Part shown: piece by piece, positions 2,749-27,755 of the stretch
Numbering within the stretch: the stretch's first letter is position 1
How the letters are laid out: each line of letters starts with the position of its first letter
Assembly: GCF_001636315.1 (NCBI RefSeq)
Contig: NZ_KV440949.1
Location: 4,296,084 to 4,360,083, forward strand
Origin: Neobacillus mesonae
Lineage (GTDB): Bacteria > Bacillota > Bacilli > Bacillales > Cytobacillaceae
Length of the DNA stretch: 64,000 nucleotides
Direction: 5' to 3'
The notes under the pieces: generated by a model
Databases searched by the model: none
What the model was told of the DNA's origin: nothing
Seen by the model: only the letters and a program-made list of their open reading frames with translations
Position numbers and translations under genes: made by a program

Positions 2749-4572
2749 ATGACAAATGAATCGGCTGTAAAGTCACTACCGGCACGAAGTGAACTTCCCG
2801 CCCAGGATACTTGGAAATTAGAGGATATTTTTGCTAACGATGAAGAATGGGAAAAAGAATTTCAAGCAGTAAAAGGTCTAATCCCGGGAATTAAGGAATA
2901 TGAAGGGAAACTCGGTGAAAGCGCAGATACATTTTATAAGGCGTTACAGTGTGAAGACCAGCTGCTTGAGCGTATTGGCAAGCTATATACATATTCACAT
3001 ATGAGATATGACCAGGATACCACCAATTCCTTTTACCAAGGCTTAGATGACCGGATGAAAAATCTTTATTCGCAGGCTGCCAGCGCGTTAGCCTTTATCG
3101 TTCCGGAAATACTCTCGATTGATGAAAGTAAGGTTTCCAGCTTTTTGAATGAAAAGCCGGAATTAAAGCTTTATGAGCATGCTCTTGAGGAAATTAATCT
3201 CCAGCGGCCGCATGTCTTAAGTGCTGAGCAGGAAGCACTTCTAGCGGAAGCAGTCGAAGTAATGGATGCCTCCAGCAACACGTTTGGGATGCTCAATAAT
3301 GCGGATTTGGAGTTTCCCTCCATAAAGGATGAAAACGGTGAAGAGGTGGAAATTACCCACGGACGTTATATCCGCTTCCTGGAAAGTAGTGATCAACGGG
3401 TCCGTCATGATGCCTTTAAAGCTGTTTATCAAACATATGGAAAGTTTAAAAACACGTTTTCAAGTACTTTAAGCGGCAATGTTAAAAAGAATAATTTCAA
3501 TGCAAGAGTACGGAAATACGACTCAGCCAGACATGCAGCACTATCGGCGAATAATATTCCAGAAAGCGTCTATGACAACCTTGTAAATGCGGTTAATGAA
3601 AACCTGCATTTACTGCACCGCTATGTGAAGCTGCGGAAAAAAGTTTTAGGGTTAAACGAATTGCATATGTACGATTTATACACACCGCTGGTAAAAGACG
3701 TAAAGATGGAAATTAAGTATGAAGAAGCAAAAGATTTGGTCCTTAAAGGCCTGGTTCCATTAGGAGAAGAATATGCAAAGGTTCTACAAGAAGGGTTTGA
3801 AAACCGCTGGGTAGATGTTCATGAAAATAAAGGAAAGCGCAGCGGGGCGTATTCTTCAGGGGCTTTCGGCACCAACCCATATATCTTAATGAACTGGCAG
3901 GATAATGTTAATAATTTATTTACACTTGCACATGAATTCGGCCACTCAGTTCATAGCTACTATACACGAAAATCACAGCCATATCCGTATGGAAATTATT
4001 CCATATTTGTTGCGGAAGTTGCTTCAACTTGCAATGAAGCTTTGCTAAATGATTACTTATTAAAAACAATAGATGACGAGCAGAAGCGGATTTATCTTTT
4101 AAACCATTATTTAGAAGGCTTCCGCGGCACGGTGTTCCGTCAAACTATGTTTGCTGAATTTGAACATTTAATTCATCAAAAAGCCCAAAACAACGAAGCG
4201 TTAACAGCTGACTCGTTAACAGAAATTTATTATGAGTTAAATAAAAAGTACTTCGGTGAAGAGGATATTGTAATTGATGAGGAAATCGGCTTGGAATGGG
4301 CACGAATTCCGCATTTCTATTACAATTATTATGTATACCAATATGCTACAGGCTTTAGTGCAGCCACTGCATTAAGCAAGCAAATCTTGGAAGAAGGCGA
4401 ACCGGCAGTCAAACGCTATATAGACTTTCTAAGTGCCGGAAGCTCAGATTATCCGATTGAAGTTCTGAAAAAAGCAGGCGTGGATATGACCAGCGCCGAC
4501 CCAGTTAAAAATGCATTGAAGGTGTTTGAAGAAAAACTTGGGGAATTGGAACAATTATTAGTACATCAATAA
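2749..4572 (+). CDS. pepF: Oligoendopeptidase F (M3B metallopeptidase)
   Basis: PepF is a cytoplasmic zinc metallopeptidase that cleaves short oligopeptides, including signalling peptides. The 607-residue product has the M3 zinc site HEFGHS at residues 399-404 and the downstream glutamate ligand region (FVAEVASTCNE) about 25 residues later, and its length is typical. The ATG at 2749 follows GGAGG at the right distance. The 140 bases between coiA and this gene hold no recognisable gene. In Bacillus subtilis pepF also follows coiA, and overexpression there affects sporulation by degrading Phr peptides; whether that applies here is inference. Confidence 0.95.
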   Translation: MTNESAVKSLPARSELPAQDTWKLEDIFANDEEWEKEFQAVKGLIPGIKEYEGKLGESADTFYKALQCEDQLLERIGKLYTYSHMRYDQDTTNSFYQGLDDRMKNLYSQAASALAFIVPEILSIDESKVSSFLNEKPELKLYEHALEEINLQRPHVLSAEQEALLAEAVEVMDASSNTFGMLNNADLEFPSIKDENGEEVEITHGRYIRFLESSDQRVRHDAFKAVYQTYGKFKNTFSSTLSGNVKKNNFNARVRKYDSARHAALSANNIPESVYDNLVNAVNENLHLLHRYVKLRKKVLGLNELHMYDLYTPLVKDVKMEIKYEEAKDLVLKGLVPLGEEYAKVLQEGFENRWVDVHENKGKRSGAYSSGAFGTNPYILMNWQDNVNNLFTLAHEFGHSVHSYYTRKSQPYPYGNYSIFVAEVASTCNEALLNDYLLKTIDDEQKRIYLLNHYLEGFRGTVFRQTMFAEFEHLIHQKAQNNEALTADSLTEIYYELNKKYFGEEDIVIDEEIGLEWARIPHFYYNYYVYQYATGFSAATALSKQILEEGEPAVKRYIDFLSAGSSDYPIEVLKKAGVDMTSADPVKNALKVFEEKLGELEQLLVHQ

Positions 4573-4576
4573 TGCA

Positions 4577-4608
4577 AAAGGCTGGTACCCGCGGCGGCAC
4601 CAGCCTTT
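4577..4608 (+). terminator. Terminator of pepF
   Basis: A 10-bp perfect stem (AAAGGCTGGT / ACCAGCCTTT) lies 5 bases after the pepF stop. The T-tract is short, so termination may be moderate. Confidence 0.7.
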
Positions 4609-4629
4609 CCTTGTAGGAAATGGTGTTGA

Positions 4630-5101
4630 TTAAGTTTATTGGCGATAAAAACTCAGGTGGAAAGGGGGGAAAGTGTTTCTAATGAGGGTTATTGGCGACA
4701 AAACACTGTTGGAAAAGGGGCTAAGTGTTTCTAATGAAGGCTATTAGCGACAAAACTCGAGGAAAAATAAGGCGAAGTGTATCCAATGAGGACTATTGGC
4801 GACAAAACTCTGTTGGAAAAGGAGCGAAGTGTATCCAATGAAGGCTGTTGGCGACAAAACTCTGTTGGAAAAGGTGCGAAGTGTATCCAATGAAGGCTAT
4901 TGGCGACAAAACTCTGTTGGAAAAGAGGCAAAGTGTTACCAATCGTGGCTATAGGCGACAAAACTCGAGGAGCAAGAGAGTAAAGTGTATCCAATGAGGG
5001 CTATAGGCGACAAAACTCGAGGAAAAATAAGGGGAAGTGTATCCAATGAAGGCTATTGGAAACAAATCTTAGGAAGAAAAGGGAAAAATGTTTCCAATGA
5101 A
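4630..5101. repeat. Array of nine 52-bp tandem repeats (subfamily A)
   Basis: The motif ATTGGCGACAAAAC or a close variant starts at 4638, 4691, 4743, 4795, 4847, 4899, 4951, 5003 and 5055, a spacing of 53 once and then exactly 52. Each unit contains an imperfect palindrome (TGTnnCCAAT, 7 bases, ATTGGnnACA), then AAACTC, a purine-rich GGAAAA stretch and AAGTGT. No unique spacers separate the copies. Frames that run through the array are repeat artefacts. The array sits between the ends of two convergent genes. Function unknown. Confidence 0.9.
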
Positions 5102-5102
5102 G

Positions 5103-5135
5103 CACAAAAAATAACCATTTGGAAAATGGTTATTT
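5103..5135 (-). terminator. Terminator of the NERD-domain gene
   Basis: A 12-bp perfect stem (5109-5120 with 5124-5135, loop GGA). Read on the minus strand it is followed by a T-tract (complement of the A-run at 5106-5110) and lies 22 bases after the NERD-gene stop. Confidence 0.85.
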
Positions 5136-5156
5136 CTTCATAGGTAAATTCAGTAT

Positions 5157-6059
5157 TTACACGTAATAAGTCCACTGACCATAACCAATAGCTTTGAAAT
5201 GTCTCTTTAAAATTCTTGTAATCCGAATTTGACTCGTAATTACTTGACACCATTCTTGAACAACATTAGTAGTAATTTTTTTATCAGGAAAAAGCAATAT
5301 AAGTTCTCTTACACTTCGAATGACAGCAGATTCGATATCTTCTTCAGAACCACAATCATAGCAAAATATTTTTCTACCATTAACCCCAATTGAAAATGAC
5401 AGGCATGCTTTACATGTAAATCCCTTTTTCGATTGCTCATAATTATATTTTGGTAAATCCGTATAAGGGTTATCGGTTTGATGCAATGAAGATAATAGTT
5501 TAGCTATATCAAAGGCTCTGCTATTTAAATTCCTGGATGAAGTGCTTAATTTTTTTAATAAATAATCAAGTTGGGTAGGATAAATGATCGGTTGGTTCTT
5601 AGGTGCTTGATATAAAGTAAATGCTGGATTAATAAAAACAACCCATGACTCTATCGGGTTATTGTAGCCGTTTTTATGAAGCAATTGACTTACTAGGGAT
5701 TCAGCTCGATTTAACTGGTGCAGTGGATTTTGAATTTTGCTTCCGTTCATTGTATAGAAATTGTCTGATTCGTAATAAAAGTCCCCTTCATAATTTTTTA
5801 TTTCAAAGAGATAAGTAATTTCTTTAATCATGAACGAAACTATTTGAAAAGTGGAATTATTACTTTTAAGTAATAAATCGTTCAATATTAGCGATTCGCA
5901 TTGAAGTTTTTCGATAAGCGTATCGAACATTACCTCTCCTTCAAAGCCTTTCTGAAGATTTAACAAATGCTGTTTGTCCGTTTCATTTAAAATCGTTCTT
6001 CTGTTTAAGGATCTTAAAATTTTTATCGTATCTGATTCAGTCCTATGCTTAAAGAACAT
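5157..6059 (-). CDS. NERD-domain protein with C-terminal zinc-ribbon
   Basis: This 300-residue protein has an N-terminal nuclease-related domain: GFEGE at about 38-42 and FEIKNYEG at 85-92, the latter carrying the E-x-K of the predicted nuclease core. A later segment (216-236) holds two CxxC pairs, as in a zinc-ribbon, followed by a basic C-terminal tail that could bind DNA. I placed the start at 6059 because GGGGAG lies six bases upstream; an ATG at 6077 has no ribosome site. The gene is not part of the conserved pepF-roxS-spxH neighbourhood and has 52-bp repeat arrays on both sides, suggesting a local insertion. Substrate and role are unknown. Confidence 0.75.
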   Translation of the reverse strand: MFFKHRTESDTIKILRSLNRRTILNETDKQHLLNLQKGFEGEVMFDTLIEKLQCESLILNDLLLKSNNSTFQIVSFMIKEITYLFEIKNYEGDFYYESDNFYTMNGSKIQNPLHQLNRAESLVSQLLHKNGYNNPIESWVVFINPAFTLYQAPKNQPIIYPTQLDYLLKKLSTSSRNLNSRAFDIAKLLSSLHQTDNPYTDLPKYNYEQSKKGFTCKACLSFSIGVNGRKIFCYDCGSEEDIESAVIRSVRELILLFPDKKITTNVVQEWCQVITSQIRITRILKRHFKAIGYGQWTYYV

Positions 6060-6295
6060 ACTAAGCTCCCCAATCATTTTTCGACTTCTGCGCCTATTAG
6101 TTCACCTGGATTTGCGTGCAATACCTTATTTAGAACAAGCGCCCCAATAAGCTATTAATTACATTTTAAATAAAAAATCGTTGTTTTTTGATTATAGTAA
6201 TGAACATTTTGTTAACATTCAAAATTTTTCGGGAACCCTTCTTTTACAAATCTACAAAGTATCTAGAATTAGTGGGTATTGCAAAAAAACTAGAG

Positions 6296-6495
6296 AGAAA
6301 ATGAGCAAAATGTTTCCAATCCGGGTTATTACCGACAAAACTCGAGGAGTAAGAGAGTAAAGTGTTTCCAATGAGGGCTATAGGCGACAAAACTCAAGGA
6401 GAAAAAAGGTGAAGTGTTTCCAATGAATGTTATTGGCGACAAAACTCAAGGAGAAAAAGGGAAAAGTGTATCCAATGAAAGCTATTGACGCCTAA
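6296..6495. repeat. Second array of the 52-bp repeat (subfamily A, four units)
   Basis: The ATTGGCGAC-equivalent positions are 6328, 6380, 6432 and 6484, exactly 52 apart. Units share the palindrome, AAACTC, GGAGAAAAA and AAGTGT blocks of the 4630-5101 array and have the same orientation. The rest of 6078-6295 is AT-rich and contains no gene I can support; part of it must be the promoter region of the NERD gene. Confidence 0.9.
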
Positions 6496-6557
6496 ACTTA
6501 AGTTCAATAAGGATGGGATGCTTCAAAATAATACAATGCAATCAGACAAAGAGAATA

Positions 6558-6593
6558 CAATCACTATTTGCACCGTTGGCAAATAGTGATTAC
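6558..6593. repeat. Inverted repeat, possible weak terminator
   Basis: An arm reading AATCACTATTTGC is repeated inverted (GCAAATAGTGATT) with an 8-base loop. There is no T-tract on either side. It lies just beyond the stop of the small minus-strand membrane frame, so it may end that transcript. Confidence 0.5.
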
Positions 6594-6603
6594 GAAGCAA
6601 CTT

Positions 6604-6831
6604 TTAAAAACCCCTAAACCTTTTTCGGTTATTAAAGTGGAGCAATATGAATACTATCGATAGAAATAATAATGGTATGCTAATAAATAAAGAAAAAATC
6701 TTCATAATAGCAAGTATATGAAGAAAAAAGGCAATGACAAAAAAGAGGAGCATCATGATATAAGGTAACTTCTTCAATGCTTGTATGCCACCTTTAAAAT
6801 CGGATTCACATACTATATGTGTATTGTCCAT
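6604..6831 (-). CDS. Small hypothetical membrane protein
   Basis: A 75-residue frame with two strongly hydrophobic segments (about residues 24-45 and 46-66) and a basic tail (NNRKRFRGF), the pattern of a small two-helix membrane protein. I do not recognise a family. The ATG has no clear ribosome binding site (TCACGAA precedes it), and the gene sits in the accessory island beside a repeat array. It could be a chance frame or a decayed gene, although the hydrophobic pattern argues for a real product. Confidence 0.4.
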   Translation of the reverse strand: MDNTHIVCESDFKGGIQALKKLPYIMMLLFFVIAFFLHILAIMKIFSLFISIPLLFLSIVFILLHFNNRKRFRGF

Positions 6832-6860
6832 TTCGTGAATTTATGACTTTTTGACAATTA

Positions 6861-6876
6861 TGTGAAATATAGCACA
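6861..6876. promoter_or_regulatory. Rex-like operator upstream of roxS
   Basis: TGTGAAATATAGCACA fits the TGTGA-N6-TCACA pattern of the NADH-sensing repressor Rex with one mismatch. It ends 6 bases before the -35 box of the roxS promoter. Rex and ResD control of RoxS is known in Bacillus subtilis; the site here is an inference from sequence. Confidence 0.55.
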
Positions 6877-6882
6877 AACTTA

Positions 6883-6911
6883 TTGTTCCAAATGTGCCTC
6901 CATGCTATATT
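6883..6911 (+). promoter_or_regulatory. Sigma-A promoter of roxS
   Basis: TTGTTC at 6883-6888, a 17-base spacer, and TATATT at 6906-6911. The predicted transcription start is close to 6918. Confidence 0.65.
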
Positions 6912-6917
6912 TAAGAC

Positions 6918-7037
6918 GTGAAGTTGATCACCAACAAACATATACCCCTTTGTTTGACCGTGAAAAATTTCTCCCATCCCCTTTGTTCGTATCTATAGAA
7001 AATACCTTGCAGACAATTTACTGCAAGGTATTTTTTT
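6918..7037 (+). ncRNA. roxS: Small regulatory RNA RoxS (RsaE)
   Basis: RoxS/RsaE is a Firmicute trans-acting small RNA that pairs through C-rich single-stranded stretches with ribosome binding sites of central-metabolism and redox mRNAs. The conserved core is visible as AACAAACAT, ACCCCTTTGTTTGA, GTGAAAAATTTCTCCCATCC and CCCTTTGTTC, ending in a terminator with an 11-bp stem (ATACCTTGCAG / CTGCAAGGTAT) and seven T residues. The length of about 120 nt and the place next to spxH (yjbH) match Bacillus subtilis. The exact 5' end is inferred from the promoter. The hairpin is not conserved in primary sequence in this family, but the core leaves little doubt. Confidence 0.9.
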
Positions 7038-7052
7038 GACTGATAAAAAAAT

Positions 7053-7073
7053 ATGCCGGACTGCAGCCGACAT
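7053..7073 (-). terminator. Terminator of the yjbI-spxH operon
   Basis: On the minus strand a 7-bp stem (ATGTCGG / CCGGCAT, one G-T pair) starts directly after the spxH stop and is followed by ATTTTTTTA. Confidence 0.75.
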
Positions 7074-7970
7074 TTATTTTCCTTCAATATACCTCCAAAA
7101 TGTACCGTATTTTGCAGGAACCTGTTCTACCATTTGCTTCAATAGGAGCTTTTTCATTTCTTTTTCAATTTGCGAAATCGGCATATTATAAACGACTGCA
7201 ATTTCTTTTGACGCCACAAACTTAAAGAACTTCAAAAACGCTTCAAGCGGCGGCGGCGGGGACTTGACTGGTTTGATGGTAAGCATCTCCTCCAAAATTT
7301 GCACGTATACCTCATAAGGATAAGTGCCGGTAATCTTGATTCCTTCATCCTCAACATTTTCATTAAAGAAAACAAGGGTCGGAATTTCGGTTACATCCAT
7401 TTCAGAAGTGATTTGTAAGTCACATTGAAAGGCCTTCGCAGCGCTTTCCGAATGCATATCATTAATGAATTCTCCAACGTCAAGCCCGGCACTTATCGCA
7501 CATTCCTGAAGCACCGCTAAATCAGAAATATTCTGCTTTTCTAAAAATACAACTTCCTGCATCCTTCGCAGGAAGCGGATCCCGGCACGCCTGCCTTGTA
7601 GTTCTGCCGCTTTCAGCGCTAGCGAAACGTTGTAGGGAGCGTCGACGGGATTTTCCAGCCAAAGACTGCCGTCACAGGACATTCCTGATCTGCTTGCAGT
7701 TTTTTCCCAAACCTTCGCGATATTTTCGTAATTTTTTTTGCTGCTAAGGTTTAAATTTGCGAGTCTTCCACTTAGAACATGTTTTATCGAAAAGTACCGT
7801 CCGTATTCAATCCGCAGCTTTTTAATGATTGGCTCCAGCGCCCAGCACTCAGGGCATAACGGGTCGATAAACATATATATTTCAATCGGCTTTTTATCAT
7901 GGCCATAACAGTTTTTCTTTGAGCCAGGATACCAAGAGCTATTCACGAAAGTCACCATCAATTTCTTCAC
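7074..7970 (-). CDS. spxH: SpxH (YjbH), adaptor for ClpXP degradation of Spx
   Basis: SpxH delivers the thiol-stress regulator Spx to ClpXP. The protein is of the DsbA-like thioredoxin fold: the redox-type motif CPEC lies at residues 39-42 after IYMFIDPL, and the cis-proline segment appears as TEIPTLVFF. At about 298 residues it has the length of the Bacillus family. The start is uncertain: GTG at 7970 overlaps the end of yjbI by 32 bases, and an in-frame ATG at 7958 is the alternative; neither has a strong ribosome site, so translation may be coupled to yjbI. The yjbI-spxH order is conserved in Bacillus. Confidence 0.93.
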
Positions 7971-27535: not shown

Positions 27536-27755
27536 GAAGTTCAATAAACACTAAAGGAAGAAAAACGTGCCGTGAAGTGTACTACATAGAGGGGTTCAAT
27601 GAACACCTGAGAGAGGAAAAACGGCTGAGAAGTGCACATAGAGAGGTTCAATGAACACCTGAGAGAGGAAAAACGGCTGAGAAGTGCACATTAGAGAGGT
27701 TCAATGAACACCTAAGAGAGAAAAAACGGCTAGGAGGTGCACATAGAGTAATTAA
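27536..27755. repeat. Tandem repeats of 52-55 bp (subfamily B, four units)
   Basis: TTCAATGAACAC or a close variant starts at 27540, 27595, 27647 and 27700, spacing 55, 52 and 53. Each unit has the palindrome GTTCAATGAAC, then GAGAGGAAAAACGGCTGAG and AAGTGCACAT. Period, the order palindrome/purine block/AAGTG, and the distance from AAGTG to GAGGAAAAA (about 35 bases) match the arrays at 4630 and 6296, so these look like one family with a different palindrome. The array lies between two convergent genes. Confidence 0.85.

Follow-up and report, generated by a model that had tools for sequence, protein, structure and literature searches.

Why does a gene for a NERD-domain protein lie between two arrays of one and the same 52-bp tandem repeat? 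The question is raised by a locus between pepF and the RoxS sRNA (6918-7033) in the window, by which we mean the whole stretch of 64,000 nucleotides of Neobacillus mesonae DNA that was analyzed (C1:4296084-4360083 of the 5.8-Mb genome). The gene itself (5157..6077, minus strand), here termed NERD-306, encodes 306 amino acids and matches the Pfam NERD family with an E value of 3.9e-13. Array 1 (4637..5102, plus strand) comprises nine 52-bp units on the 3' side of the gene, past a terminator-like hairpin of pepF. TRF delimits it at 4637-5102 with a period of 52, 9.0 copies, and 79% matches, and an iterated HMM finds nine plus-strand units at 4638-5101, spaced once by 53 and then seven times by 52. 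The purine-rich strand of this array is antisense to the NERD gene. Array 2 (6278..6502, plus strand) follows on the 5' side of the gene in the same orientation: TRF places it at 6295-6502 (period 52, about 3.5 copies), the iterated HMM gives four plus-strand matches from 6294 to 6478, the first of them partial, and by eye a degenerate 50-bp unit comes first (at about 6278), followed by units at 6328, 6380, and 6432 and a partial unit. TRF, HMM, and Pfam thus confirm the bracketing by two arrays of like orientation that a sequence-only reading had described; its nine units on the 3' side stand, and its second array is slightly longer than claimed, beginning at about 6278. An imperfect palindrome, TGTNNCCAAT-N7-ATTGGNNACA, recurs every 52 bp.

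The pepF hairpin (4576..4612, plus strand, recognized by eye) carries a weak T run, and Array 1 starts 25 bp beyond it; in array-free relatives, a similar hairpin is visible by eye ahead of the next gene after pepF. A 75-aa membrane-like ORF (window 6604-6831) is also found between pepF and RoxS and is matched in 15 of 29 pepF intervals of relatives. Beyond RoxS lies a DsbA-like gene (7074-7970, by Pfam), presumably yjbH.

The repeat family of the window recurs with at least three units at 12 further places in the genome, which makes 13 loci and 117 units with the window included, in both orientations. None of these 12 places coincides with one of the 14 NERD-domain places of the genome—the nearest is about 17 kb away. 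Because the family adjoins many unrelated genes (neighbors of repeat and NERD loci being mechanical ORFs, not annotations), our own first reading was one of accident: arrays would be common past gene ends, and a NERD gene would by chance have come to lie between two of them. Within the family, 93 of 100 neighboring spacings are exactly 52 (spacings from 45 to 60 were counted) and neighboring units differ at a mean of 6.5 of 45 positions, which bears out the earlier claim of a fixed period with drifting units.

Seen from the gene, NERD-306 is near-constantly paired with a phased array of its own. All eight NERD-306-type genes of this genome (defined by tblastn with the window protein at E <= 1e-10) are followed, at a distance of 58-124 bp from the gene match, by an array of 52-bp period, and the unit differs from array to array. 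Of the 19 best-matching loci in relatives of the genus, 15 show an array inside the fetched 1.5-kb flanks; contig ends cut short three of the remaining four (L065, L072, L073) but not L074. When loci of relatives were chosen regardless of repeats—taken from the match list, avoiding entries at the very start of a contig—36 of 40 carry an array; as to the other four, L155 ends 50 bp after the gene, L164 has a period of 114 bp, and L162 and L168 show no repeat of at least 20 bp. The loci L102-L106 are all array-positive as well, but they were picked after the arrays were known, and hence 36/40 is the unbiased figure. Other genera, mostly from other families of the order, contribute 25 array-bearing loci out of 28 (misses: L185, L200, and L207, the latter at a contig edge). 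Where present, the array sets in no more than about 400 bp beyond the 3' end of the NERD-306 gene and has a period of 51-53 bp, and its unit sequence varies by locus. It is confined to the 3' side at the 41 array-positive among 45 loci of relatives; an array on the 5' side in addition to the 3' one was met in the window, L191, and L210.

As a control, gene-sized windows with 700-bp flanks were scanned over 400 kb of this genome, and an array of this kind appears at 2 of 160. Set against this background, the rates of 36/40 and 25/28 refute the accidental reading unless the loci are a sampling artefact, and the reading is scarcely credible even though the family of the window occurs at 12 other sites without NERD. 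The sequence-only reading would have called the association accidental if arrays were as frequent beside unrelated genes and the gene occurred without them: arrays beside unrelated genes were indeed found, NERD-306 genes without arrays are rare, and its suggestion of a link between protein and repeats is supported by the comparative counts and, as laid out below, by an array that appears to track the C-terminus of the protein. The density of arrays goes in the same direction, with none of 50-54 bp in 590 kb sampled from three genomes without NERD-306 (G034, G041, G044) versus nine in 600 kb from three genomes with it (G000, G156, G160), these genomes being few, phylogenetically clustered, and not independent. 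The absence of NERD-306 is judged in G041 and G044 from seven candidates scored in each, and G034 has one other NERD-domain gene. On a larger scale, 4 of 398 genomes from across the phylum contain NERD-306 (E <= 1e-60), all of them in this order; within the order, 234 of 299 genomes match at E <= 1e-3, a looser count that takes in other NERD proteins.

Arrays also occur alone. A second 52-bp array of the window, of another unit family and without NERD (27539..27748, by TRF and ORFs), lies between convergent genes. It begins 4 bp after an acetyltransferase-like ORF stops and gives out ahead of an endonuclease III-like ORF that runs toward it. Its unit matches, with a similarity of 0.69, that of the array next to another NERD gene, at C1:4173k (L113), shuffles reaching at most 0.56. 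Among three unselected solo arrays of this genome, two have their match in the array of a single resident NERD gene (0.67-0.69, as against <=0.56 for shuffles) and the third weakly matches another resident NERD array (0.58 versus 0.56 for shuffles). A near-identical transposase ORF, which we take to be of the IS256 type, apparently splits two different 52-bp arrays (L036:2754-3938 and L113:3132-4205).

The pairing extends to a second subfamily with a different period. In this genome, five of the six other NERD-domain genes adjoin tandem arrays with a period near 21 bp (in one case TRF reports 82 bp with a 21-bp sub-period), and no array accompanies the remaining gene, a NERD-helicase-like ORF. 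The ORFs at three of these five (L107, L110, L116) display by eye a NERD domain, a CxxC-CxxC motif, and a C-terminal layout as in NERD-306. Across the genus, 29 of 30 loci of this subfamily, NERD-330 (one per genome, our own included), bear arrays of about 21 bp or a multiple of it within 700 bp—on both sides in 20 of the 29—and the background for arrays of about 21 bp is 3/160 windows. No 52-bp array was found at the 30 NERD-330 loci. The 52-bp period corresponds closely to five full helical turns and the 21-bp period to two. One locus (L305) has a long compound array 5' of its NERD-330 gene with a period of 102, 7.5 copies, and a 21-bp sub-period. At another, a helicase ORF (L110:3721-5211), presumably ComFA-like, directly adjoins a NERD-330-type gene, whose opposite side carries 21-bp arrays.

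What is conserved between NERD-306 arrays is an architecture rather than a sequence. With consensus periods pre-filtered to 50-54 bp, 74 array units measure 52 bp in 61 cases, 51 in 10, and 53 in 3. The idea of one repeat family accordingly holds for the two arrays around 5157..6077 and fails across NERD loci, where the units differ and the period and the palindromic layout persist. The purine-rich strand is antisense to the gene in 67/74 arrays and not so in 7/74. At least nine of ten arm positions are complementary in 28 of the 74 units as compared with 8 of 3700 shuffles, and in 25 of the 74 the best palindrome reaches just 6-7 of 10; the 7 arrays of deviating strand and these 25 units count against the two-part element proposed below. 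Arms pair at 8.59/10 within a locus versus 4.71/10 across loci, in a set of 49 loci that were selected for pairing of at least 8/10, which favors the within-locus value. The 10-7-10 arrangement of the arms was also considered as a possible tyrosine-recombinase core site, a suggestion made by shape alone.

The position of the arrays next to a nuclease-like gene and the co-variation between the arms of their imperfect inverted repeats might point to a system at the RNA level, in which transcription of the array would yield hairpin RNAs that direct the nuclease or hold it in check, in the manner of type III toxin-antitoxin or OMEGA-type systems. However, the 69 unpaired arm positions of the 49 loci show no wobble signature (9 G-T on the purine strand, 10 A-C, 50 other). 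The purine strand mostly runs antisense to the gene, solo arrays are many, and a search of Rfam over window positions 4500-7100 returned RoxS/RsaE (6918-7033) alone above the cut-off and no family over the arrays. Given the missing wobble signature and Rfam family, we judge an RNA hairpin system to be very improbable.

Array and protein covary, most strongly in the C-terminal region of the latter. Mantel tests were run on 46 of 53 NERD-306 loci (50 genes are free of stops and longer than 250 aa, and 46 of them have an array). Over these 46 loci, unit similarity correlates with protein identity in every segment—r is 0.58 for the C-terminal region, 0.47 for the NERD domain, 0.41 for the zinc ribbon, 0.37 for the middle segment, and 0.31 for the N-terminus—and, given the C-terminus, a partial signal persists for NERD (0.23) and the zinc ribbon (0.21). 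Such a correlation in all segments would also be expected from plain co-inheritance; the case for the C-terminus rests on thinned sets. In the 26 loci that are at most 65% identical, the C-terminal region still correlates with the unit (r 0.37, p 0.0005; given NERD 0.32, p 0.0005). The NERD domain does so with r 0.20 (p 0.004), which falls to 0.06 (p 0.23) given the C-terminus; in this set, neither the N-terminal part (p 0.64) nor the middle (p 0.48) nor the zinc ribbon (p 0.06) reaches significance. The simplest reading is that a winged helix at the C-terminus might read the palindrome of its own array, which makes the array apparently the candidate binding target of the NERD protein.

The protein itself is built from three recognizable parts. 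Its NERD nuclease-like domain (residues 43-149, from Pfam and alignments) scores 50.3 bits against PF08378, with a gathering cut-off of 22.1; no other Pfam family is reported above its cut-off for the window protein, and 18 of 18 members of the A1 set match PF08378 at E <= 1. The alignments further delineate a C4 zinc ribbon at residues about 217-246, and predicted secondary structure suggests a winged-helix-like C-terminus (residues 247-306). AlphaFold2 with two sequences arrived at a mean pLDDT of 48, residues 211-300 lying at 67-87; the model is poor elsewhere, and it gives the C-terminus three helices and two strands. As this model returned nothing in Foldseek at E <= 0.001, the winged-helix call rests on the predicted secondary structure; a sequence search of the PDB gave merely weak zinc-ribbon matches.

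Nucleases of the PD-(D/E)XK type are marked by the residues E, D, and E-x-K. The corresponding positions are conserved across the family: E48 in 18/18 aligned proteins, D80 in 49/50, E or D at position 92 in 50/50, and K94 in 50/50. The window copy is the sole exception at position 80, where it carries Val (D80V), so that it is probably inactive as a nuclease. Other copies are visibly broken and keep their arrays, one through an in-frame stop (L113:4682-5596) and one through a frame change that leaves two ORFs (L117:4842-5743). This suggests that copies are born and decay and that arrays outlive genes.

Conserved catalytic-type residues, together with an array sequence that follows the protein, would also suit a conflict or defense module, whose nuclease would be harmful or antiviral and would be held back or directed by the cognate array, acting as a DNA decoy or self-mark. 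We consider this rather improbable: the three proteins submitted to PADLOC had no match at E <= 0.001 (the best E was 0.006, and the window protein had none), solo arrays lie at many sites, stop- or frame-broken NERD copies retain theirs, and relatives on phages or plasmids were not found.

Comparison of orthologous sites shows that these are filled or empty between species and that arrays exist without the gene. At the pepF site, 30 genomes were read out of 61 matched, and 28 of them lack both NERD and any 50-54-bp array within 1.5 kb. This genome has the succession array-NERD-array; in G064, its closest relative as judged by pepF identity, about five units of a diverged array are present without NERD. 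The comparison of the pepF-roxS interval that the sequence-only reading had proposed hence yields empty, array-only, and filled states, and the insertion of the gene into an existing array, one of its suggestions, fits the window, given the array without NERD at the orthologous site of G064. At a second site, between gyrA and a 16S rRNA gene (confirmed by Rfam, L115:5670-7219), 4 of 30 genomes read contain a NERD gene and a 52-bp array, and in 11 only 317-473 bp separate the end of the gyrA match from the rRNA, and no 50-54-bp array is present. The remaining 15 are not informative, as 14 end too early and L340 shows neither state. The four gyrA copies share their site and differ in their units, and hence units are replaced in concert within a lineage. 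The same site in four species also indicates vertical inheritance with infrequent movement. In plasmids, phages, and viral contigs, searched with two peptide patterns and by tblastn with the window protein only, no relative was found, so that no horizontal carrier is seen; neither was a target-site duplication identified.

Persistence at the gyrA site in four species is also what a resident chromosomal function would predict. In that case, the NERD protein would coat its phased array into a nucleoid, insulator, or transcription-end structure beyond the ends of genes, with the nuclease domain in charge of upkeep and nothing selfish involved. Periods near whole helical turns would suit such a coat, and at seven of the eight own NERD-306 loci a neighboring convergent ORF has its stop 52-101 bp from the far end of the array. 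Yet the gene is missing from some genomes, the majority of the orthologous sites read are empty, and a genome can hold several diverged copies with repeats that differ between them (as many as 12 matches at E <= 1e-3, a count that other NERD subfamilies may have entered). We regard a resident function as unlikely.

The pairing of NERD gene and array points instead to an undescribed kind of self-spreading genetic element. That NERD-306 genes and 52-bp arrays form a two-part chromosomal element—a DNA-reading nuclease and its cognate satellite repeats, the latter also occurring solo—is in our estimation the best explanation, although an evenly balanced proposition. In such an element, the winged helix might bind the palindrome as a dimer, and the fixed period of 51-53 bp, about five helical turns, would set neighboring dimers on one face of the DNA. 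The NERD domain, judging from its PD-(D/E)XK-type residues, might nick or cut at or near the units. Repair of these breaks within or between arrays would then homogenize and expand the arrays, might copy the gene into other arrays to give an array-gene-array succession as in the window, and might seed solo arrays past gene ends; solo arrays could also be left behind after gene loss. The sister subfamily NERD-330 would undergo the same process with its two-turn arrays of 21 bp.

A more far-reaching generalization, which we put forward tentatively and deem somewhat more apt to fail than to hold, would make the NERD-zinc-ribbon-winged-helix proteins a new class of selfish DNA. Their nucleases would create, homogenize, and spread satellites of their own, with a copy-specific palindrome tracking the winged helix and a period of whole turns, namely five in NERD-306 arrays and two in those of NERD-330; arrays on their own would be comparable to solo LTRs or MITEs, and NERD genes would home into them. 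Several consequences make the element worth pursuing. It would supply a candidate DNA target for NERD, a domain of hitherto open function, and explain the origin of many tandem arrays in the genomes of this order. The dozens of natural protein-target pairs, in which DNA-reading region and palindrome covary, might be used to derive a recognition code. If the nuclease does drive the arrays, bacteria would possess protein-driven satellite DNA.

Among known systems, the RAYT/REP pair is the nearest analogue, although two of its defining features, the transposase family and the inverted flanking repeats, are absent here. According to PMC2817692, a RAYT gene is linked to its own palindromic repeats, which are extragenic and also dispersed without the gene, and protein and repeat coevolve. 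NERD-306 shares the link of a gene to palindromic repeats of its own, the solo and extragenic repeats, and, by the Mantel tests, the covariation of protein and array. On repeat abundance the signs are mixed: none in 590 kb of the three genomes lacking the gene as opposed to nine in 600 kb, a clear match to a resident NERD array for two of three solo arrays and a weak one for the third, and a pepF array in G064 that persists without the gene there. The differences are that RAYT is an IS200/IS605-type transposase, where the present protein combines NERD, a zinc ribbon, and a predicted winged helix, and that the repeats here form direct tandem arrays of a fixed 52-bp (or 21-bp) period, for NERD-306 mainly on the 3' side. 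There is no inverted pair of flanking repeats, the two arrays of the window being direct.

As to the domain, SmdA is a NERD-domain membrane protein in cell morphology, and its authors, writing in 2022, knew of no bacterial protein in which the functional importance of NERD had been examined or confirmed (PMC9040797). NERD-306 shares with it the domain (PF08378, above the curated cut-off); the difference is that SmdA is a membrane protein, and the relevant passages of that article do not mention repeats. Searches of open-access articles in PMC turned up none that, judged by title and abstract beginning, treats NERD genes together with tandem repeats or this 52-bp family. They brought up one article with a single mention of a NERD domain (PMC4057527), and the word is absent from the main text of the SPADE article (PMC6344855).

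Tandem arrays beside a nuclease gene are also seen with CRISPR and with type III toxin-antitoxin repeats, the latter placing an RNA repeat array upstream of the toxin gene and co-directional with it. Unlike CRISPR arrays, those described here have no unique spacers, since the 52-bp units are homologous over their full length and even the 7-bp stretches between the arms recur. They differ from both systems in lying 3' of the gene and usually antisense to it and in having dispersed solo arrays; by position they also depart from type III toxin-antitoxin loci, as the units have no defined transcript direction. A zinc-binding motif next to a restriction-like nuclease recalls the endonuclease of R2-type retrotransposons, elements that live in tandem rDNA arrays. 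The corresponding Foldseek match, from a low-confidence model, is not significant (E 0.045), and the 306-aa NERD protein, in contrast to R2, has no reverse transcriptase. The 52-bp array with most copies among the NERD-306 loci scanned, at L163:4355-5977, holds 31.5 copies beside its NERD-306 gene.
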